Below, in pieces: positions 3,088 to 19,699 of a stretch of DNA of 28,610 bases. A program made the position numbers and the translations under genes. The stretch is from assembly GCA_900498245.1 (NCBI GenBank), contig LS998015.1, positions 2,773,504-2,802,113 of the forward strand, given 5' to 3'. This stretch comes from Candidatus Zixiibacteriota bacterium. GTDB lineage: Bacteria; Zixibacteria; MSB-5A5; GN15; PGXB01. Position 1 is the first letter of the stretch. Every line of letters begins with the position of its first letter. The notes below the pieces were generated by a model that saw only the letters and a list, made by a program, of their open reading frames with translations, was not told where the DNA came from and did not search any database.

Positions 3088-4538
3088 AAAAGTTTATATT
3101 TTTGACAGCAATAATTATGGGGGCAGTCGGTTTGGTTTCCGGCCAGGAAACGGCACCCAGATCGCCCGGGTCGGAATTATTGAGCAAACTGGCAATCCAA
3201 CCGATTGAATTGGCTATTCCCGAAGTGGGCAAAGGTGTTGACAGGGTGGTACTGGATAACGGACTTACGATTTATCTCTACGAAGATCATCACCTTCCGA
3301 TTTTCAATATCAGCACCCTAATTCACTGCGGCGACATATTCGATCCCGCAGATAAAGACGGATTATCCGGGCTGGTAGGAACGGTCATGAGAACCGGCGG
3401 CACAAAAAGTATCAGCGGCGATTCCATCAATGTCCTGATGGAGTACATCGGCGGAAGTCTGGAATGCCATGTGGGGATGGAAAACGGCTCGGTTTCACTC
3501 GATATCTTATCGAAAGATGTAGATTTGGGGTTGAAGTTGTACGCCGATCTTCTCCGCAATCCGGCATTTCCGCAAGACAAACTGGACCTGGCCAAGGCCG
3601 ATATCAGAAATAGCATAAAGAGGAGAAATGATAACCCGTCGGGCGTAGTCAACATGTATTTCGACAATATCGTCTACGGCGATCATCCCTACGGCCGTAT
3701 CCTGAATTGGGCTTCGGTCAAAAATGTCACCGTTCAGGATCTGGTTGATTATCACAAAAAATTCTTCGTCCCCAATCAGACCATTATAGGTGTGAGCGGC
3801 GATTTTAAGAAAGATGAAATCATCGGGAAATTGAAAGAGTATTTGGGTAATTGGCCGAAATCAACGGAACCGCTTCCCCCCTATCCTCCGGTGGAGTATA
3901 AATATCATCCCGGAGTATATGAGATCAGGAAGGATATCAATCAGGGTTACATTTCCATAGGTGAATTGGGAATCAGGCGCGATAACCCGGATCGGTTCGC
4001 CATTAGCATCATGAATTACATTCTTGGCGGCGGTTCGTTCACTTCCCGTCTGACTTCGAAAGTCAGGTCGGATGAAGGGCTGGCTTATCATGTCGGATCG
4101 ACTTTTGAGACAGACTCCCGGGACTTTGGCACTTTTGATGCGGTCTGCCAGACTAAAAGCGCCACGACCTTCAAGGCCATCGATTTGATGGTCGCGGAAA
4201 TAAAAAAGATTCGCGACCAGGGAGTCTCGGAGCAGGAATTGAAGGAAGCCCGGGACGCCGTCATCAACCGCTTTGTTTTCACTTTCGACAGCCCGGCTCG
4301 AATTGTCGGCAATTTGATGAATCTGGAATTCAATGGATTGCCTGAAGATTATTATAGGACATACCTTGATAATTATAGAAAGATATCTACCGCCGATATA
4401 AAACGGGTGGCAATGGAATATTTGAAGCCGGATCAACTGAGTTATATCGTAGTGGGTATGCCGGATAAATTCGAGAAATCTCTTGATGTATTCGGGCCGG
4501 TAAAAGTAATCGATTTGAGTCCGCCGCTATTGGATTAA
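3084..4538 (+). CDS. M16 family peptidase-like protein, non-zinc subunit, exported
   Basis: A 484-residue M16 homologue with a signal peptide (MKKFIFLTAIIMGAVGLVSG). In place of the HxxEH zinc motif it reads GLSGLVGTVMRTGG, with G96, G99 and T100 where the two His and the Glu should be. It therefore cannot bind catalytic zinc. It does keep the Arg/Tyr substrate-orienting pair (R328 and Y335 in KVRSDEGLAYHVGS), which its upstream partner lacks. It overlaps that partner by four bases (ATGA) with GGAGGGA just upstream, so the two are translationally coupled. This complementary division is known for heterodimeric M16B enzymes. Here it is inferred from motifs only. A hairpin terminator follows the stop. 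Confidence 0.93.
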   Translation: MKKFIFLTAIIMGAVGLVSGQETAPRSPGSELLSKLAIQPIELAIPEVGKGVDRVVLDNGLTIYLYEDHHLPIFNISTLIHCGDIFDPADKDGLSGLVGTVMRTGGTKSISGDSINVLMEYIGGSLECHVGMENGSVSLDILSKDVDLGLKLYADLLRNPAFPQDKLDLAKADIRNSIKRRNDNPSGVVNMYFDNIVYGDHPYGRILNWASVKNVTVQDLVDYHKKFFVPNQTIIGVSGDFKKDEIIGKLKEYLGNWPKSTEPLPPYPPVEYKYHPGVYEIRKDINQGYISIGELGIRRDNPDRFAISIMNYILGGGSFTSRLTSKVRSDEGLAYHVGSTFETDSRDFGTFDAVCQTKSATTFKAIDLMVAEIKKIRDQGVSEQELKEARDAVINRFVFTFDSPARIVGNLMNLEFNGLPEDYYRTYLDNYRKISTADIKRVAMEYLKPDQLSYIVVGMPDKFEKSLDVFGPVKVIDLSPPLLD

Positions 4539-4566: not shown

Positions 4567-4604
4567 AAGGCCGTTACATGCTGTTGACGGCCCTCTTTTT
4601 TTTA
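4567..4604 (+). terminator. Rho-independent terminator of the M16 operon, perhaps bidirectional
   Basis: GGCCGT (4569-4574) pairs with ACGGCC (4587-4592), followed by CTC and an eight-T run. On the minus strand the same hairpin directly follows the rluD-like stop at 4602 and is followed by a weaker T-rich stretch (TTCTTT). It may end both convergent operons. Confidence 0.8.
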
Positions 4605-5603
4605 GCGAAATGATTCGGTCAGAAAATTCAGCAAATTTTGAAAATCTTCGGGGAGGGCACTATCAAGAGAAATGGTCCGGCCGGTTACGGGGTGGCGGAA
4701 AACCAGCGACTTGGCGTGCAGCGCCTGACGGGGTATCAGATCCAGCGCCTTTTCGGCAAGGCGGTGATCGGCGGAATATATTCCTCGGTGCCATTTTTGC
4801 CGGCCGCCGTACTCCGGATCGCCAAAAACAGGGTGACCGAGATGAGAGAGGTGAACACGGATTTGATGGGTCCGCCCGGTCAGCAGATCGATTTCAAGGA
4901 GATCATACAATTTATAACGCTCCAGAAGGCGGTAGCCGGTGAGGGCGCGGCGTCCTTTAAGATCGGTTACAGTCATTTTTTTGCGGTCCTTCCGGGATCG
5001 TCCGACCGGCCTGTCGATAGTATCGGAATCCTTTTTCATATGTCCGCAGACCAGCGCCCAATATTTTTTCTTTATTTCTCTTTTTTGGAAGGCATTTTGA
5101 AGAAGCTGATGAACCGTGTCATTTTTGGCGGCAATGATGAGACCGGAGGTGTTTTTGTCAAGACGGTGGACGATACCGGCCCGCTCAAGACCCTGGCCGC
5201 GCGAGAGATCGGATGAGTAATTCAAAAGGGCGTTGACCAGGGTTCCCGACCGGTGACCGGCCGCGGGGTGGGTCACCATTCCGGCGGGCTTATTGACGAC
5301 AAGAAGAAATTCATCTTCAAAAATAACATTAAGGGGGATTTCTTCGGGATTTATTCCGGGATTTACGGCCGGCGGGATTTGAATTTTAATTTTTTCGCCG
5401 CCATTCAGGATATGGGAATGCTCCGCAGGGCGCCCGTCAACTGTCACCAACCCACTCTCAATCAATTTCTGGATTTTGCTTCGGGATAGGCCAATTTTTG
5501 AATCGCGGCCGAGATATCGATCCAGCCGTTCCCTCTTGATGTTCGGCGGGCAGGAAATTTCGACAGTTTTTTGAGGGGGCTGTCGAGTATCATTCCCGGT
5601 CAT
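4602..5603 (-). CDS. rluD: RluA/RluD-family 23S rRNA pseudouridine synthase
   Basis: A 333-residue protein. Residues about 22-75 form an S4 RNA-binding domain (ERLDRYLG ... SRSKIQKLIESGLVTVDG). The catalytic domain carries the family signature HRLDKNTSGLIIAAKN, whose Asp is the catalytic nucleophile, and later GRTHQIRVHLSHLGHPVFGD. The S4-plus-RluA layout and length match RluD, which makes pseudouridines in helix 69 of 23S rRNA. Assignment to RluD rather than RluC rests on the overall look, not on an alignment. It starts 15 bases after the PdxJ-like gene and is the last gene of the ten-gene minus-strand operon. No strong Shine-Dalgarno site precedes the ATG. Confidence 0.9.
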   Translation of the reverse strand: MTGNDTRQPPQKTVEISCPPNIKRERLDRYLGRDSKIGLSRSKIQKLIESGLVTVDGRPAEHSHILNGGEKIKIQIPPAVNPGINPEEIPLNVIFEDEFLLVVNKPAGMVTHPAAGHRSGTLVNALLNYSSDLSRGQGLERAGIVHRLDKNTSGLIIAAKNDTVHQLLQNAFQKREIKKKYWALVCGHMKKDSDTIDRPVGRSRKDRKKMTVTDLKGRRALTGYRLLERYKLYDLLEIDLLTGRTHQIRVHLSHLGHPVFGDPEYGGRQKWHRGIYSADHRLAEKALDLIPRQALHAKSLVFRHPVTGRTISLDSALPEDFQNLLNFLTESFR

Positions 5604-5618
5604 ATTTTTATCCGGGTT

Positions 5619-6350
5619 TTATGGCCTTATTGGAGCCGATTTCACCAGATGCAACAATTCGCTGACGGCTCGATCCAAACCCACCATCAGCGCCCGAGCG
5701 ATTACCGCATTGCCGACGGTAAATTCCTCGAATAAGCCAAGATCGATTAAGGGACGAATGCTCTTATAACTCAGACCATTGCTGCAATTGGGAAGCAAAT
5801 TCAATTTATTGGCCAAATGGGCCATCTGCTCCAGACGATCCAGTTCGGCCTCGGCGCTTTCAATGGTTTCGGCGGCGACATATTTAAAAGCATTAAATTC
5901 GACCGCATCCACTTTGGCCCGAGCGGCTTCTTTGACAGCATCGATATCGGGCTCGATAAAAAAACCGACGCTAATACCCGAGGCCTTAATGGTAGCGGCG
6001 ACCTCAGTGTAAAGATCCTTGTTGTTTGTCAAATCGATACCGTTTTTTATGACGGTTTCATCGCCGATAAATGGCATCAAGGTCACCATGAACGGTTTCA
6101 CTTCCACCGCCCGCTCAACCAGATCGTCGGCCGGGGCCATTTGAAGGGTCAACTTGGTCTTGACCATTTCTTTCAGAATATAGACATCGCGATCGCGGAT
6201 AAAACGGCGATCCTCCCGCAGGTGACAGGTGATACCGTCGGCCCCGGCCAATTCGGCCAGCACCGCGGCCTGCGAAGGATCAGGCTCCCGGAAGCGGCGC
6301 ATCTCGCGCAAGGCGGCAATATTATCCACTTTTATAGAAAGCAGTGCCAT
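5619..6350 (-). CDS. PdxJ-family (pyridoxine 5'-phosphate synthase-like) protein with altered active site
   Basis: A 243-residue TIM-barrel protein that aligns along its whole length with PdxJ, which condenses 1-deoxyxylulose 5-phosphate with 3-amino-2-oxopropyl phosphate. Shared stretches include EPDPSQAA, AGADGITCHLREDRR (residues 35-49) and GLSYKSIRPL. Yet most residues that PdxJ uses are changed. NIDH is VDN (N10), NLEMA is TLQMA (Q70), VPEKR is MPFIG (F94), EIHTG is EFNAF (N153), NAGHGL is NCSNGL (N191) and NIGHAI is TVGNAV (N214). Only H43 and nearby Arg/Asp residues of the HLREDRR motif survive. The comparison is to the E. coli sequence from memory. GGGGA lies 7 bases before the ATG. 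An automatic pipeline would call it pdxJ. I doubt it makes pyridoxine phosphate. No other vitamin B6 gene is nearby. Confidence 0.85.
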   Translation of the reverse strand: MALLSIKVDNIAALREMRRFREPDPSQAAVLAELAGADGITCHLREDRRFIRDRDVYILKEMVKTKLTLQMAPADDLVERAVEVKPFMVTLMPFIGDETVIKNGIDLTNNKDLYTEVAATIKASGISVGFFIEPDIDAVKEAARAKVDAVEFNAFKYVAAETIESAEAELDRLEQMAHLANKLNLLPNCSNGLSYKSIRPLIDLGLFEEFTVGNAVIARALMVGLDRAVSELLHLVKSAPIRP

Positions 6351-6400: not shown

Positions 6401-7201
6401 TCAAGATAAAATTATCTTTTTTAGTTCCCCAGTCAGGCGAATAAATCCCTCAATATCGATCTCTTCAGCCCGGATCTGGGGCGGCCACCGGAGTCGATCC
6501 AGGACTTTTTCAAGGACGGAGCGGGTTAACTTATCTGACTCCAACAGATTATTTGTCAAGAACTTCCGCCGATGGGCAAAAGAAAGGCGGACAATTTTTT
6601 CAAATGCGGTCCAATCATCAATGCGATATAGTTCCCGGGGCTCAAAGAGGAGCGTGGCGGAATTCACTTTTGGCGGAGGGTAAAATGCTTTCGGTCCTAT
6701 TTTCATCGCCTTCTTGATCCCAAAATGACATTGGCAGAATATAGACAGAGGCGCCCAATTCTTACTCCCCGGTTTCGAGGAGATTCTGTCAGCCAATTCC
6801 TCCTGAGCGGTAATGACTGCCCTTGTGACAGAGGATCGATGAACAATCATCCATTCCAGAAGCGGGGAAGTTATATCATAAGGAATATTGCCTATCAATT
6901 TGAAAGAGCCGGCGTGATAATCATGCGGCTCGACTTTCAGAAAGTCCTGGTTTACGATTCTGACCGCCGGGGTCCCTTCGAACATTCGATTCAATTGGTC
7001 GATCAGAGTCCGATCCAGTTCGAATGAAAAAATATTTGTTCCGGTATCGGCCAAAAGGCGGGTTAAAATGCCGCGCCCGGTGCCGATTTCAAAGACGGTT
7101 TCGCCGGGATGAACTTGAAGCAAATCAACTATGGCTCCGGCGATATTTTTATCGGTCAGGAAATTTTGTGAAAAGCGTTTCTTCGGCTTCTGAAACGGCA
7201 C
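6401..7201 (-). CDS. rsmA: 16S rRNA dimethyladenosine transferase RsmA (KsgA)
   Basis: A 266-residue SAM-dependent methyltransferase, the usual length of the family. It dimethylates two adjacent adenines near the 3' end of 16S rRNA. The N-terminus KKRFSQNFLTDKNI is the KsgA signature. The SAM-binding loop is FEIGTGRG (residues 37-44) and the catalytic motif is NIPYDITSPLL (105-115). The C-terminal helical region ends with IDIEGFIRLTGEL. The start is GTG at 7201, with a G-rich ribosome site in the last codons of tatD, whose stop is 5 bases upstream. Confidence 0.95.
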   Translation of the reverse strand: MPFQKPKKRFSQNFLTDKNIAGAIVDLLQVHPGETVFEIGTGRGILTRLLADTGTNIFSFELDRTLIDQLNRMFEGTPAVRIVNQDFLKVEPHDYHAGSFKLIGNIPYDITSPLLEWMIVHRSSVTRAVITAQEELADRISSKPGSKNWAPLSIFCQCHFGIKKAMKIGPKAFYPPPKVNSATLLFEPRELYRIDDWTAFEKIVRLSFAHRRKFLTNNLLESDKLTRSVLEKVLDRLRWPPQIRAEEIDIEGFIRLTGELKKIILS

Positions 7202-7206
7202 AAACG

Positions 7207-7983
7207 TTACCCCCCGAAAGTCTCAACCAGGCGATAAACCTTACGGCAGTTGCGATCCGTAATCTTCTCGGCTTCGGCGAACGAAATCCCCTGAAGTTCG
7301 GCCAATTTGGCGCAGATGTACTTGACATAAGCCGGCTGATTCGCTTGGCCGCGGAAGGGTACAGGTGTAAGATATGGGGAATCGGTTTCAAGTAATATTT
7401 TGTCCAACGGGACGGCGGCGGCGACTTCGGCCATTTTTGCTTTGGGGTAGGTGATGACGCCGCCGACAGAAATGTGGAATCCCATATCTATTACTTCGAA
7501 CGCTTCGTCGATTGTCCCCGGAAAACAATGAAAAATGCCCCCGGGAAGATTTTCGTAATAGTCTTTCAGGGCCCCTACCGTATCGCGAAACGAATCGCGG
7601 GAATGGATTACCACCGGGAAGTTTTCGCGGACGGCAATTTCAAGCTGCCGCAGGAATACTCTTCTCTGTTCCGCACGAGGTGACAAATCGCGGTAATAAT
7701 CAAGGCCGATTTCGCCAATGGCGACCGTCTTTTTGTGCTGAAGAAGTCGCAACAGACCGGATTCGGTCGGGGGATCGTACTTCGAAGCATCGTGCGGGTG
7801 TACCCCCACGGTAGCGTATATGCAATCGTACTTTTCGGCAAGAGCGACCGATTTTTCAGAAGACTTCATATCGGCACCAATATTGACCATAATTTCAACC
7901 CCCTCGCGGCGGGCATTATTTATGGTCTCCTCCAGATTGCCGTGATATTCTTTCAGATCAAGATGACAATGAGAGTCGATCAT
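7207..7983 (-). CDS. tatD: TatD-family metal-dependent deoxyribonuclease
   Basis: A 258-residue amidohydrolase-fold protein. Metal ligands seen are H5 and H7 (MIDSHCHLD), E91 (IGEIGLDYY), H127 (VVIHSRD), H152 (IFHCFPG) and D201 (LLETDSPYL), the full TatD set. TatD proteins act as 3'-5' exonucleases or DNA-repair/quality-control nucleases; the natural substrate in this organism is unknown. Its ATG overlaps the metG stop by one base (TGATG), so translation is probably coupled. Its position between metG and rsmA is also found in Bacillus-type genomes. Confidence 0.95.
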   Translation of the reverse strand: MIDSHCHLDLKEYHGNLEETINNARREGVEIMVNIGADMKSSEKSVALAEKYDCIYATVGVHPHDASKYDPPTESGLLRLLQHKKTVAIGEIGLDYYRDLSPRAEQRRVFLRQLEIAVRENFPVVIHSRDSFRDTVGALKDYYENLPGGIFHCFPGTIDEAFEVIDMGFHISVGGVITYPKAKMAEVAAAVPLDKILLETDSPYLTPVPFRGQANQPAYVKYICAKLAELQGISFAEAEKITDRNCRKVYRLVETFGG

Positions 7984-18235: not shown

Positions 18236-19699
18236 CTACTTTTTTGGCTCCGGCTCGGGAATCTCCTCGGTTATACCGGCCAGCCGTCTGGCGAACTGGA
18301 CTTTTTCCTCGAGATTCTCCGACGCTCGAATCATCAGTTTGGCGCCATCGGGCGAACCGCCCCCATGCATGCAACCGGGAACGCCGGCACCAATAGTCGC
18401 CCATTCCACCAGCCGCGCCGCTCTCACCCGGGATTCAGCGCTATGTCTGGCTTTCAGATATTTCTTAAGCAAATGGCCATACTTGGGAGAGACGATATCT
18501 TTATAGGCCGGAATACAACCGGTTTCGGCGATGCCTCCGGCAATATCCTGCGCCAGAAGTGAGGTTTCGTAGGGAAGCGTCGCCACATGAATCTTATTTA
18601 CATTGGAGAGAAGCATGTCGCATACCCAGGCCCCGGAGGGGTGCCGTTTGCCGAGCGCCGCCGCGGCAATGCCGACACCGTAAGTGGTTTCATTATTGAT
18701 ATGCATTTTTACAAGTTTGTCATTGAAAACTTTGGACGAAAGACCATTGGCGCGGGCGGTAAGAACGGCGGCGCCGATTTTGACATCGCCCTGTCCGGCG
18801 ACACAGCCGCCGATGGCCGCCCGGTAAGCGCTGATAAAGTATTTTACGGCATTCAGGGCGAACTCATACTCGCCCGCCATAAAGACGCGCTCTTTGGGAA
18901 TGAAAACATTTTCGAAAAGGAGGTAGGCCTGCGTAATGCCGCCGTCTTTGACAGGAATATCAAAACCTTCCTCGGTTTCGCGAGTATCGCTGGGACGGCG
19001 GGTCTCCACGATCGTCAGGTTTTCAATGTCGCGCGGAATGACAAATGAAAGGGCATAATCTTTTTCGGCTTCCTTATAACCGGAACCGGGCAAAATAAAA
19101 ATTTCGTTGGAGGCCGCCACTCCGCAAATCATCACTTTGGCGCCGCGAACGACAATGCCATCGGGCCGTTTTTCGACGATATGAAGACACATATCGGGAT
19201 CATCCTGTGCCATCGGCGATTTGGTACGGTCACCCTTGGGGTCGGTGAGAGCGCCGGAGACCGTAATATCGCGCGACTGGGCATCGCGGAGCCAATTGAG
19301 GAGACGAACATGATAGTCCGTACCCAATTTTTGATCCATTTCATAGGTAGTAAGAAACATCGAATTCAGCGCCGTCCAGCCGACACACCGGCCGCCGGTG
19401 CAAGTCCCGGTTTTCTGAAACATATGGCGTTTCAACCGGGAATTAGCATACATATCTTCAGGGGCCCTGATTATTGAGAGATAGCGACTGATTGGCTCCC
19501 CGGTCAGCGAAGAGGTTGTGGTCAGGATCTCCCGTTCCGCCGGGTCATCGAGCAATTTGTAGGATTGACCGTGTCCCTCAATGGTATTGCGAGTCGCCGG
19601 GTGCGTGGTGACATCGTTTATCAATTCATCGAATTTATGAATATTGGGCCGCATCCTTCGCAGCGAGTCGAGGTACTCGGAATATGTTCTAAGGGCCAT
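18236..19699 (-). CDS. 4-hydroxybutyryl-CoA dehydratase (AbfD)/HpaB-family flavoprotein
   Basis: A 487-residue protein, collinear with AbfD of Clostridium aminobutyricum (comparison from memory). The N-terminal helical domain (MALRTYSEYLDSLR) leads to a flavin-binding middle domain with LTDPKGDR (151-158) and EKRPDGIVVRGAK. Of the dehydratase [4Fe-4S] ligands (Cys99, Cys103, His292, Cys299) it has C100 and C105 (one extra residue between) and C299 (IGGCVAGQGD). His292 is Y292. Active-site Tyr296 is I296 and Glu455 is replaced by G442 in GCMHGGGSP. It is therefore a family member of uncertain reaction: a dehydratase, isomerase or flavin monooxygenase-like enzyme. AGGAG lies 7 bases before the ATG. 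No CoA-transferase or other 4-hydroxybutyrate gene is adjacent. Confidence 0.88.
   Translation of the reverse strand: MALRTYSEYLDSLRRMRPNIHKFDELINDVTTHPATRNTIEGHGQSYKLLDDPAEREILTTTSSLTGEPISRYLSIIRAPEDMYANSRLKRHMFQKTGTCTGGRCVGWTALNSMFLTTYEMDQKLGTDYHVRLLNWLRDAQSRDITVSGALTDPKGDRTKSPMAQDDPDMCLHIVEKRPDGIVVRGAKVMICGVAASNEIFILPGSGYKEAEKDYALSFVIPRDIENLTIVETRRPSDTRETEEGFDIPVKDGGITQAYLLFENVFIPKERVFMAGEYEFALNAVKYFISAYRAAIGGCVAGQGDVKIGAAVLTARANGLSSKVFNDKLVKMHINNETTYGVGIAAAALGKRHPSGAWVCDMLLSNVNKIHVATLPYETSLLAQDIAGGIAETGCIPAYKDIVSPKYGHLLKKYLKARHSAESRVRAARLVEWATIGAGVPGCMHGGGSPDGAKLMIRASENLEEKVQFARRLAGITEEIPEPEPKK

Follow-up and report, generated by a model that had tools for sequence, protein, structure and literature searches.

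The window, which is the whole stretch of 28,610 nucleotides of DNA that was analysed, carries a gene for a PdxJ ortholog that has probably (roughly three chances in four) been repurposed in place after a switch of the vitamin B6 pathway. The protein would no longer be a pyridoxine 5'-phosphate (PNP) synthase, with its phosphate cradle partly kept. The gene is almost certainly misannotated when it is called pdxJ, and the ortholog probably has another role now. The features of the locus are listed in Table 1.

Table 1. Coordinates in the window of the PdxJ-like gene, its altered codons, and the neighbouring genes
Feature	Positions	Strand	Remarks
PdxJ-like gene	5619..6350	minus	243 aa; fold of a PNP synthase, canonical catalytic residues missing
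Codons K7, V8, D9, N10 (E. coli N9, V/I, D11, H12)	6321..6332	minus	Substrate contacts of strand 1, two changed; counted from the gene start at 6350
Codon Q70 (E. coli catalytic Glu72)	6139..6141	minus	Gapless alignment
Codons 94-105, former lid (E. coli 96-107)	6034..6069	minus	PEKR..TTEGG motif lost
Codon N191 (E. coli His193)	5776..5778	minus	Change common to 11/11 family members
Codons G213, N214 (E. coli G215, H216)	5707..5712	minus	Phosphate-cradle Gly kept, His lost
rsmA (ksgA)	6401..7201	minus	TIGR00755, 231.5 bits; upstream, same operon-like run
tatD-like DNase gene	7207..7983	minus	Part of the conserved order metG-tatD-rsmA-pdxJ
RluA-family (RluD-like) pseudouridine synthase	4602..5603	minus	Downstream

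Identity and active site of the protein

The open reading frame is intact in two assemblies, where the protein of the second assembly is 96% identical. The closest named record in the database scan, from an uncultured candidate division Zixibacteria bacterium, shows 96% identity. The plus strand of the same interval is interrupted by many stops. The PF03740 profile matches residues 4-235 on profile positions 2-233 of 234 with 215.7 bits (cut-off 24.5). The NCBIfam equivalog NF003625 is passed with 221.7 bits (cut-off 190) and TIGR00559 is barely passed with 193.1 bits against a cut-off of 192.75; automatic pipelines would therefore name the gene pyridoxine 5'-phosphate synthase. The initial annotation had described a PdxJ barrel, an intact gene, and a possible misannotation as pdxJ. 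These three points are borne out by the PF03740 score together with the gapless alignment to 1m5w, by the 243-residue frame in both assemblies, and by the two cut-offs that are passed. A second, canonical pdxJ, for which it had proposed a search, was not found in the source genome, which is a single contig of 3.5 Mb with 98.9% completeness and a single PF03740 match.

The AlphaFold2 model, built from 51 sequences, is a (beta/alpha)8 barrel with a pLDDT of 92.9 and a pTM of 0.90. The best PDB matches of the model are all PdxJ, with TM scores of 0.92-0.95 (0.94 to 3f4n and 1ho1); the alignment behind the model included canonical PdxJs, so that this fold call is partly built in, and sequence homology alone implies the fold.

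In phmmer, the window protein aligns to E. coli PdxJ (1m5w) without a gap along 235 residues (161.8 bits), and window position n corresponds to E. coli position n+2 throughout. The E. coli sequence used in the scripts agrees with the aligned 1m5w segment. The absence of gaps and the constant offset of 2 rule out catalytic residues at shifted positions. The changes relative to E. coli are N9K, H12N, H52F, E72Q, E96F, T102V, T103I, E104K, G105N, G192S, H193N, and H216N, where K7, N10, F50, Q70, F94, V100, N191, and N214 of the window protein correspond to N9, H12, H52, E72, E96, T102, H193, and H216. The kept residues are D9, R18, H43, R45, E151, G192, and G213, which correspond to D11, R20, H45, R47, E153, G194, and G215. 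H45 and E153 alone are kept from the PNP-synthase set of N9, H12, H45, E72, E153, H193, and H216, the residues of catalysis and ligand binding in the PdxJ structures. The loop 95-105 that closes the active site, with its conserved TTEGG, is lost in the window protein, and the former lid (codons 94-105) is the most variable stretch in the family and has the lowest model confidence inside the barrel. Residues 95-105 of PdxJ have been reported as the active-site lid (PMC10471632).

The initial annotation had listed six replaced positions. The gapless alignment upholds N10, Q70, F94, N191, and N214. N153 (E. coli H155) drops out as it is not diagnostic: Asn is also found there in 7/7 canonical Zixibacterial PdxJs, and six of these seven genomes have PdxA. 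That list does not include the changes K7 (N9), F50 (H52), and V100 (T102), nor the disappearance of the TTEGG lid. The interpretation of the replacements as a systematic, near-isosteric rewrite of His to Asn and Glu to Gln is not supported, since the replacement residues vary between families and partly within them. Nor is the Asn/Gln set supported as the signature of a clade, the exact set being confined to the genus and N153 being no change relative to functional relatives.

The erosion was followed across 51 full-length divergent orthologs from Zixibacteriota. His193 is kept in 0/51 of them, H12 in 8%, and the lid residue Gly105 in none; almost every one of the 51 lacks the lid. Position 193 is occupied by N in the family of the window protein (f1) and mostly by R in family f4, and the other families have G, Q, S, K, or E. 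At position 45, f1 retains the His and f4 has mostly Q; f4 keeps E72, and the polar set of E72, Q45, and R193 is nearly fixed in f4. The phosphate cradle is partly retained among the divergent orthologs (G194 in 96%, G215 in 100%, and R47 in 75%). The invariant or nearly invariant residues are R17, P25, P27, G38, D57, L61, P88, G194, N199, G215, G226, and A230. Ligand and lid positions have a mean retention of 0.41, compared with 0.67 for the remaining positions that are invariant in the canonical form (P = 0.007), which indicates that erosion is concentrated in the active site. It does not follow one fixed Asn/Gln signature. In families f14 and f15 the erosion has gone further, with copies of about 220 aa.

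Within f1 (n=11), D11, H45, E153, N155, and N193 are invariant, and K9 and Q72 are found in 9/11 members. N10 and N214 occur in the two genomes of the window's genus only; the other members have Y, H, C, or Q at position 12 and Y or H at position 216, and position 72 is Q or R. N193 is the only one of the four real His/Glu replacements in the initial annotation that is fixed in 11/11 members. This conservation of the pocket is suggestive, but within families the pocket does not exceed the average significantly (P = 0.11 for the f1 set; P = 0.18).

Vitamin B6 pathways in Zixibacteriota

PdxS is directly followed by PdxT (SNO, 176 bits) in the source genome. The same genome gave no match to PdxA (PF04166) in a profile search that was positive in five control genomes, which answers the question of pdxA raised in the initial annotation. 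PF04166 is presumably matched by both PdxA and PdxA2.

The sweep of the phylum covered 97 Zixibacteriota genomes with completeness of at least 85%, and 68 of them have a PdxJ match. The matches fall into canonical PdxJ with 307-324 bits (n=7) and divergent PdxJ with 248 bits or less (n=61). PdxS is matched in 60/61 genomes with divergent PdxJ (two as fragments only and one below the curated cut-off), and the sole exception is a draft genome (G099). PdxA is matched in 0/61 of these genomes. The genomes with canonical PdxJ have PdxS in 0/7 and PdxA in 6/7. A second set of named records gave PdxS in 9/9 divergent compared with 0/20 canonical records, and PdxA in 0/9 compared with 18/20; the Fisher tests on the pathway counts treat genomes as independent, and on the host tree the contrast within the phylum may reflect as few as one switch. 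Their P values are therefore descriptive.

PdxH was rejected as a pathway marker. PF10590 matches 0/97 Zixibacteriota genomes, so that PdxH is absent even from those with PdxA and canonical PdxJ. Two drafts (G081 and G085) have no PdxJ, PdxA, or PdxS match and are either incomplete assemblies or B6 auxotrophs.

Neighbourhood, selection, and loss of the gene

The placement of the gene in the initial annotation, with rsmA before it and rluD after it, agrees with the profile matches to both neighbours. The tatD-like gene is named from sequence similarity. The PdxJ-like gene lies directly between rsmA and rluD in families f1-f4. The tatD-rsmA pair is located about 3 kb before pdxJ in four canonical genomes (G082, G083, G084, and G088), and the same spacing of about 3 kb is found in the divergent families f9, f10, and f16. 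The 3-kb stretch of G084 has three genes without Pfam matches. M16 peptidase genes follow pdxJ in canonical G083, G084, G087, and G088 and are shared with several divergent loci. The presence of tatD-rsmA before both forms makes the canonical and divergent genes positional orthologs, and on this synteny paralogy of the two forms was rejected. The gene tree supports the families and groups the canonical sequences, including that of E. coli, at 91/95; without a fixed root it is not decisive alone. The most parsimonious account has the gene inherited vertically at a single position while the pathway around it was exchanged. A functional link to rRNA modification was dismissed, as the same order surrounds canonical pdxJ in the phylum and reflects inherited synteny.

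Two of the very eroded PdxJ-like proteins of f15, of about 220-240 aa (L119:5864-6535 and L101:6001-6717), lie away from rsmA. The f15 copies adjoin a radical SAM gene (PF04055) in two genera, which is a conserved new neighbourhood. Elsewhere in the window, a minus-strand gene at 18236-19699 encodes a 487-aa protein that by eye resembles the 4-hydroxybutyryl-CoA dehydratase / 4-hydroxyphenylacetate hydroxylase family.

Pairwise dN/dS is 0.017 for G000/G001, 0.057 for G006/G013, and at most 0.12 for the other divergent pairs, and the canonical pairs give 0.041 and 0.083; the precision is limited because dS approaches saturation in several comparisons. The window gene (G000) and its counterpart in G001 differ by 111 synonymous and 14 non-synonymous changes. 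The low dN/dS indicates that the divergent gene is maintained by strong purifying selection. A pseudogene was rejected given the intact frame in two assemblies and the dN/dS of 0.017. Six genomes (G015, G017, G021, G024, G027, and G042) cleanly lack the gene at its place between rsmA and rluD. Its absence from several near-complete genomes indicates that the function is not essential, and a non-essential, conditionally useful function would fit. The f1-family gene of G005 (L221, around 4135-4521), in a single-contig genome, keeps the first 129 residues only, by truncation or by an assembly frameshift.

We propose that a zixibacterial ancestor made B6 via PdxA and PdxJ. One branch would have gained PdxS-PdxT and lost PdxA, which would have left PdxJ stranded. 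The barrel would then have been kept and repurposed in place. Its general acid/base residues and the lid that closes over the substrate disappeared by different routes, while the fold, D11, and some of the phosphate cradle (G194, G215, and in most cases R47) remained. We infer that PNP synthesis has been lost. Our guess at the present role, offered at somewhat less than even odds, is the binding of a small phosphorylated metabolite; the protein would then act in binding or regulation, open and without a lid, and would no longer form a ring as an enzyme. At similar odds we extend this to an in-place conversion without duplication after displacement by a non-homologous pathway, with a new role (possibly a new enzyme or a phosphometabolite sensor) that is conserved over much of the phylum and a pocket that is remodelled by family.

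The initial annotation had named a binding protein or an enzyme with a new substrate as candidates. A new enzyme, whose pocket would have been rebuilt for another phosphorylated substrate with one set of residues in f1 (e.g., K7, H43, E151, and N191) and other sets elsewhere, is the main rival, though rather unlikely in our view. The invariance of D11, H45, E153, and N193 in f1 makes some pocket chemistry conceivable, and N155, the frequent K9 and Q72, the different and nearly fixed polar set of f4, and a dN/dS as low as that of the catalytic form are also in its favour. However, the sets differ between sister families, the rim positions 12, 52, and 216 and the lid vary freely, which would be odd for one conserved reaction, and the gene is absent from several relatives. 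A B6-vitamer (PLP/PNP) binder or sensor, with affinity for the product kept after synthesis was lost, appears improbable. It would explain the retained cradle glycines, and a pure product binder could tolerate the loss of acid/base groups, but H193 and H216, which contact the ligand in PdxJ, are lost, and the neighbouring genes, which represent inherited synteny, gave no genetic connection to B6 genes.

The losses at E72, H193, H12, N9, H216, and the lid weigh against a protein that is still a PNP synthase, perhaps a poor one fed by a PdxA-independent route. The window protein keeps the fold, D11, R20, H45, R47, and E153, and PdxA2 and other pathway holes have been discussed (PMC9997740); however, none of the 61 divergent genomes has a PF04166 protein and PLP is already supplied by PdxST, so that we give this explanation hardly any chance. 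A relic without function since the PdxST switch, in slow decay and being lost, is very improbable as well. The clean absences, the copy of G005 that is broken after residue 129, and the eroded f14 and f15 copies are what a relic would leave, but dN/dS values of 0.017-0.12 with many synonymous changes and intact open frames in at least 50 full-length divergent orthologs contradict it. Repurposing in place with loss of PNP synthesis is the explanation that we prefer.

Relation to known systems and distribution beyond the phylum

The window protein resembles known PdxJ (PF03740, TIGR00559; 1ho1, 1m5w, 3f4n, and 5dlc) in its full-length gapless homology, its barrel, and seven kept residues. It differs in the substitutions N9K, H12N, H52F, E72Q, E96F, T102V, H193N, and H216N, in the absence of TTEGG, and in a genome that has PdxST and lacks PdxA. 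Canonical Zixibacteriota PdxJs (f6, f11, f12, and f13; e.g., G084 and G088) share the position behind tatD-rsmA and the Asn at 155, but those have the complete catalytic set and the lid, and their genomes lack PdxS and have PdxA in 6/7 cases. A comparable case in the same pathway is PdxA2, in which a fold of B6 biosynthesis serves a purpose other than making PLP (PMC9997740). PdxA2 is, however, a paralog and retains the PdxA activity, whereas here the sole ortholog has changed and the catalytic residues are gone. MamO is reported to have a protease fold that was turned to metal binding and is not proteolytic (PMC4794232). It is an example of kind only, in which the scaffold of an enzyme persists, its catalysis has gone, and another role has been acquired; the fold and the system are unrelated.

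In the literature searched, no work on pdxJ in Zixibacteria was found, and none on a PdxJ that had been repurposed. A non-synthase PdxJ ortholog that is maintained after pathway displacement would thus be new relative to that literature, where the fold and the family are already known. The pdxJ gene has been regarded as a signature of the DXP-dependent B6 pathway and as well annotated (PMC9997740). This rule fails in these Zixibacteria, where pdxJ is called though PLP must come from PdxST, and pathway predictions and automatic annotation are consequently wrong. The locus would also serve as a natural experiment with one position, one switch, catalytic and putatively non-catalytic orthologs, and selection that persists past the use of the original reaction. 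It makes testable what keeps an enzyme fold once its reaction is gone.

The database scan covered 84,980 species genomes with patterns derived from the divergent forms, and the best 80 loci were kept. Ten of these best 80 loci are divergent and differ from E. coli at 4-6 of nine key positions; where a title of these ten gives a phylum, it is Zixibacteriota or the GN15 candidate division, and the others of the ten are titled only 'bacterium'. The other 70 loci come from many phyla, where 68 match E. coli at 9/9 positions and two differ at one. The best 80 loci found with such patterns suggest that divergent PdxJ may be restricted to Zixibacteria. One PdxJ from KSB1 (L133:4001-4711), whose genome has PdxA, is canonical except for a Lys in place of the catalytic Glu72; this is either an error of sequencing or a change of another kind.
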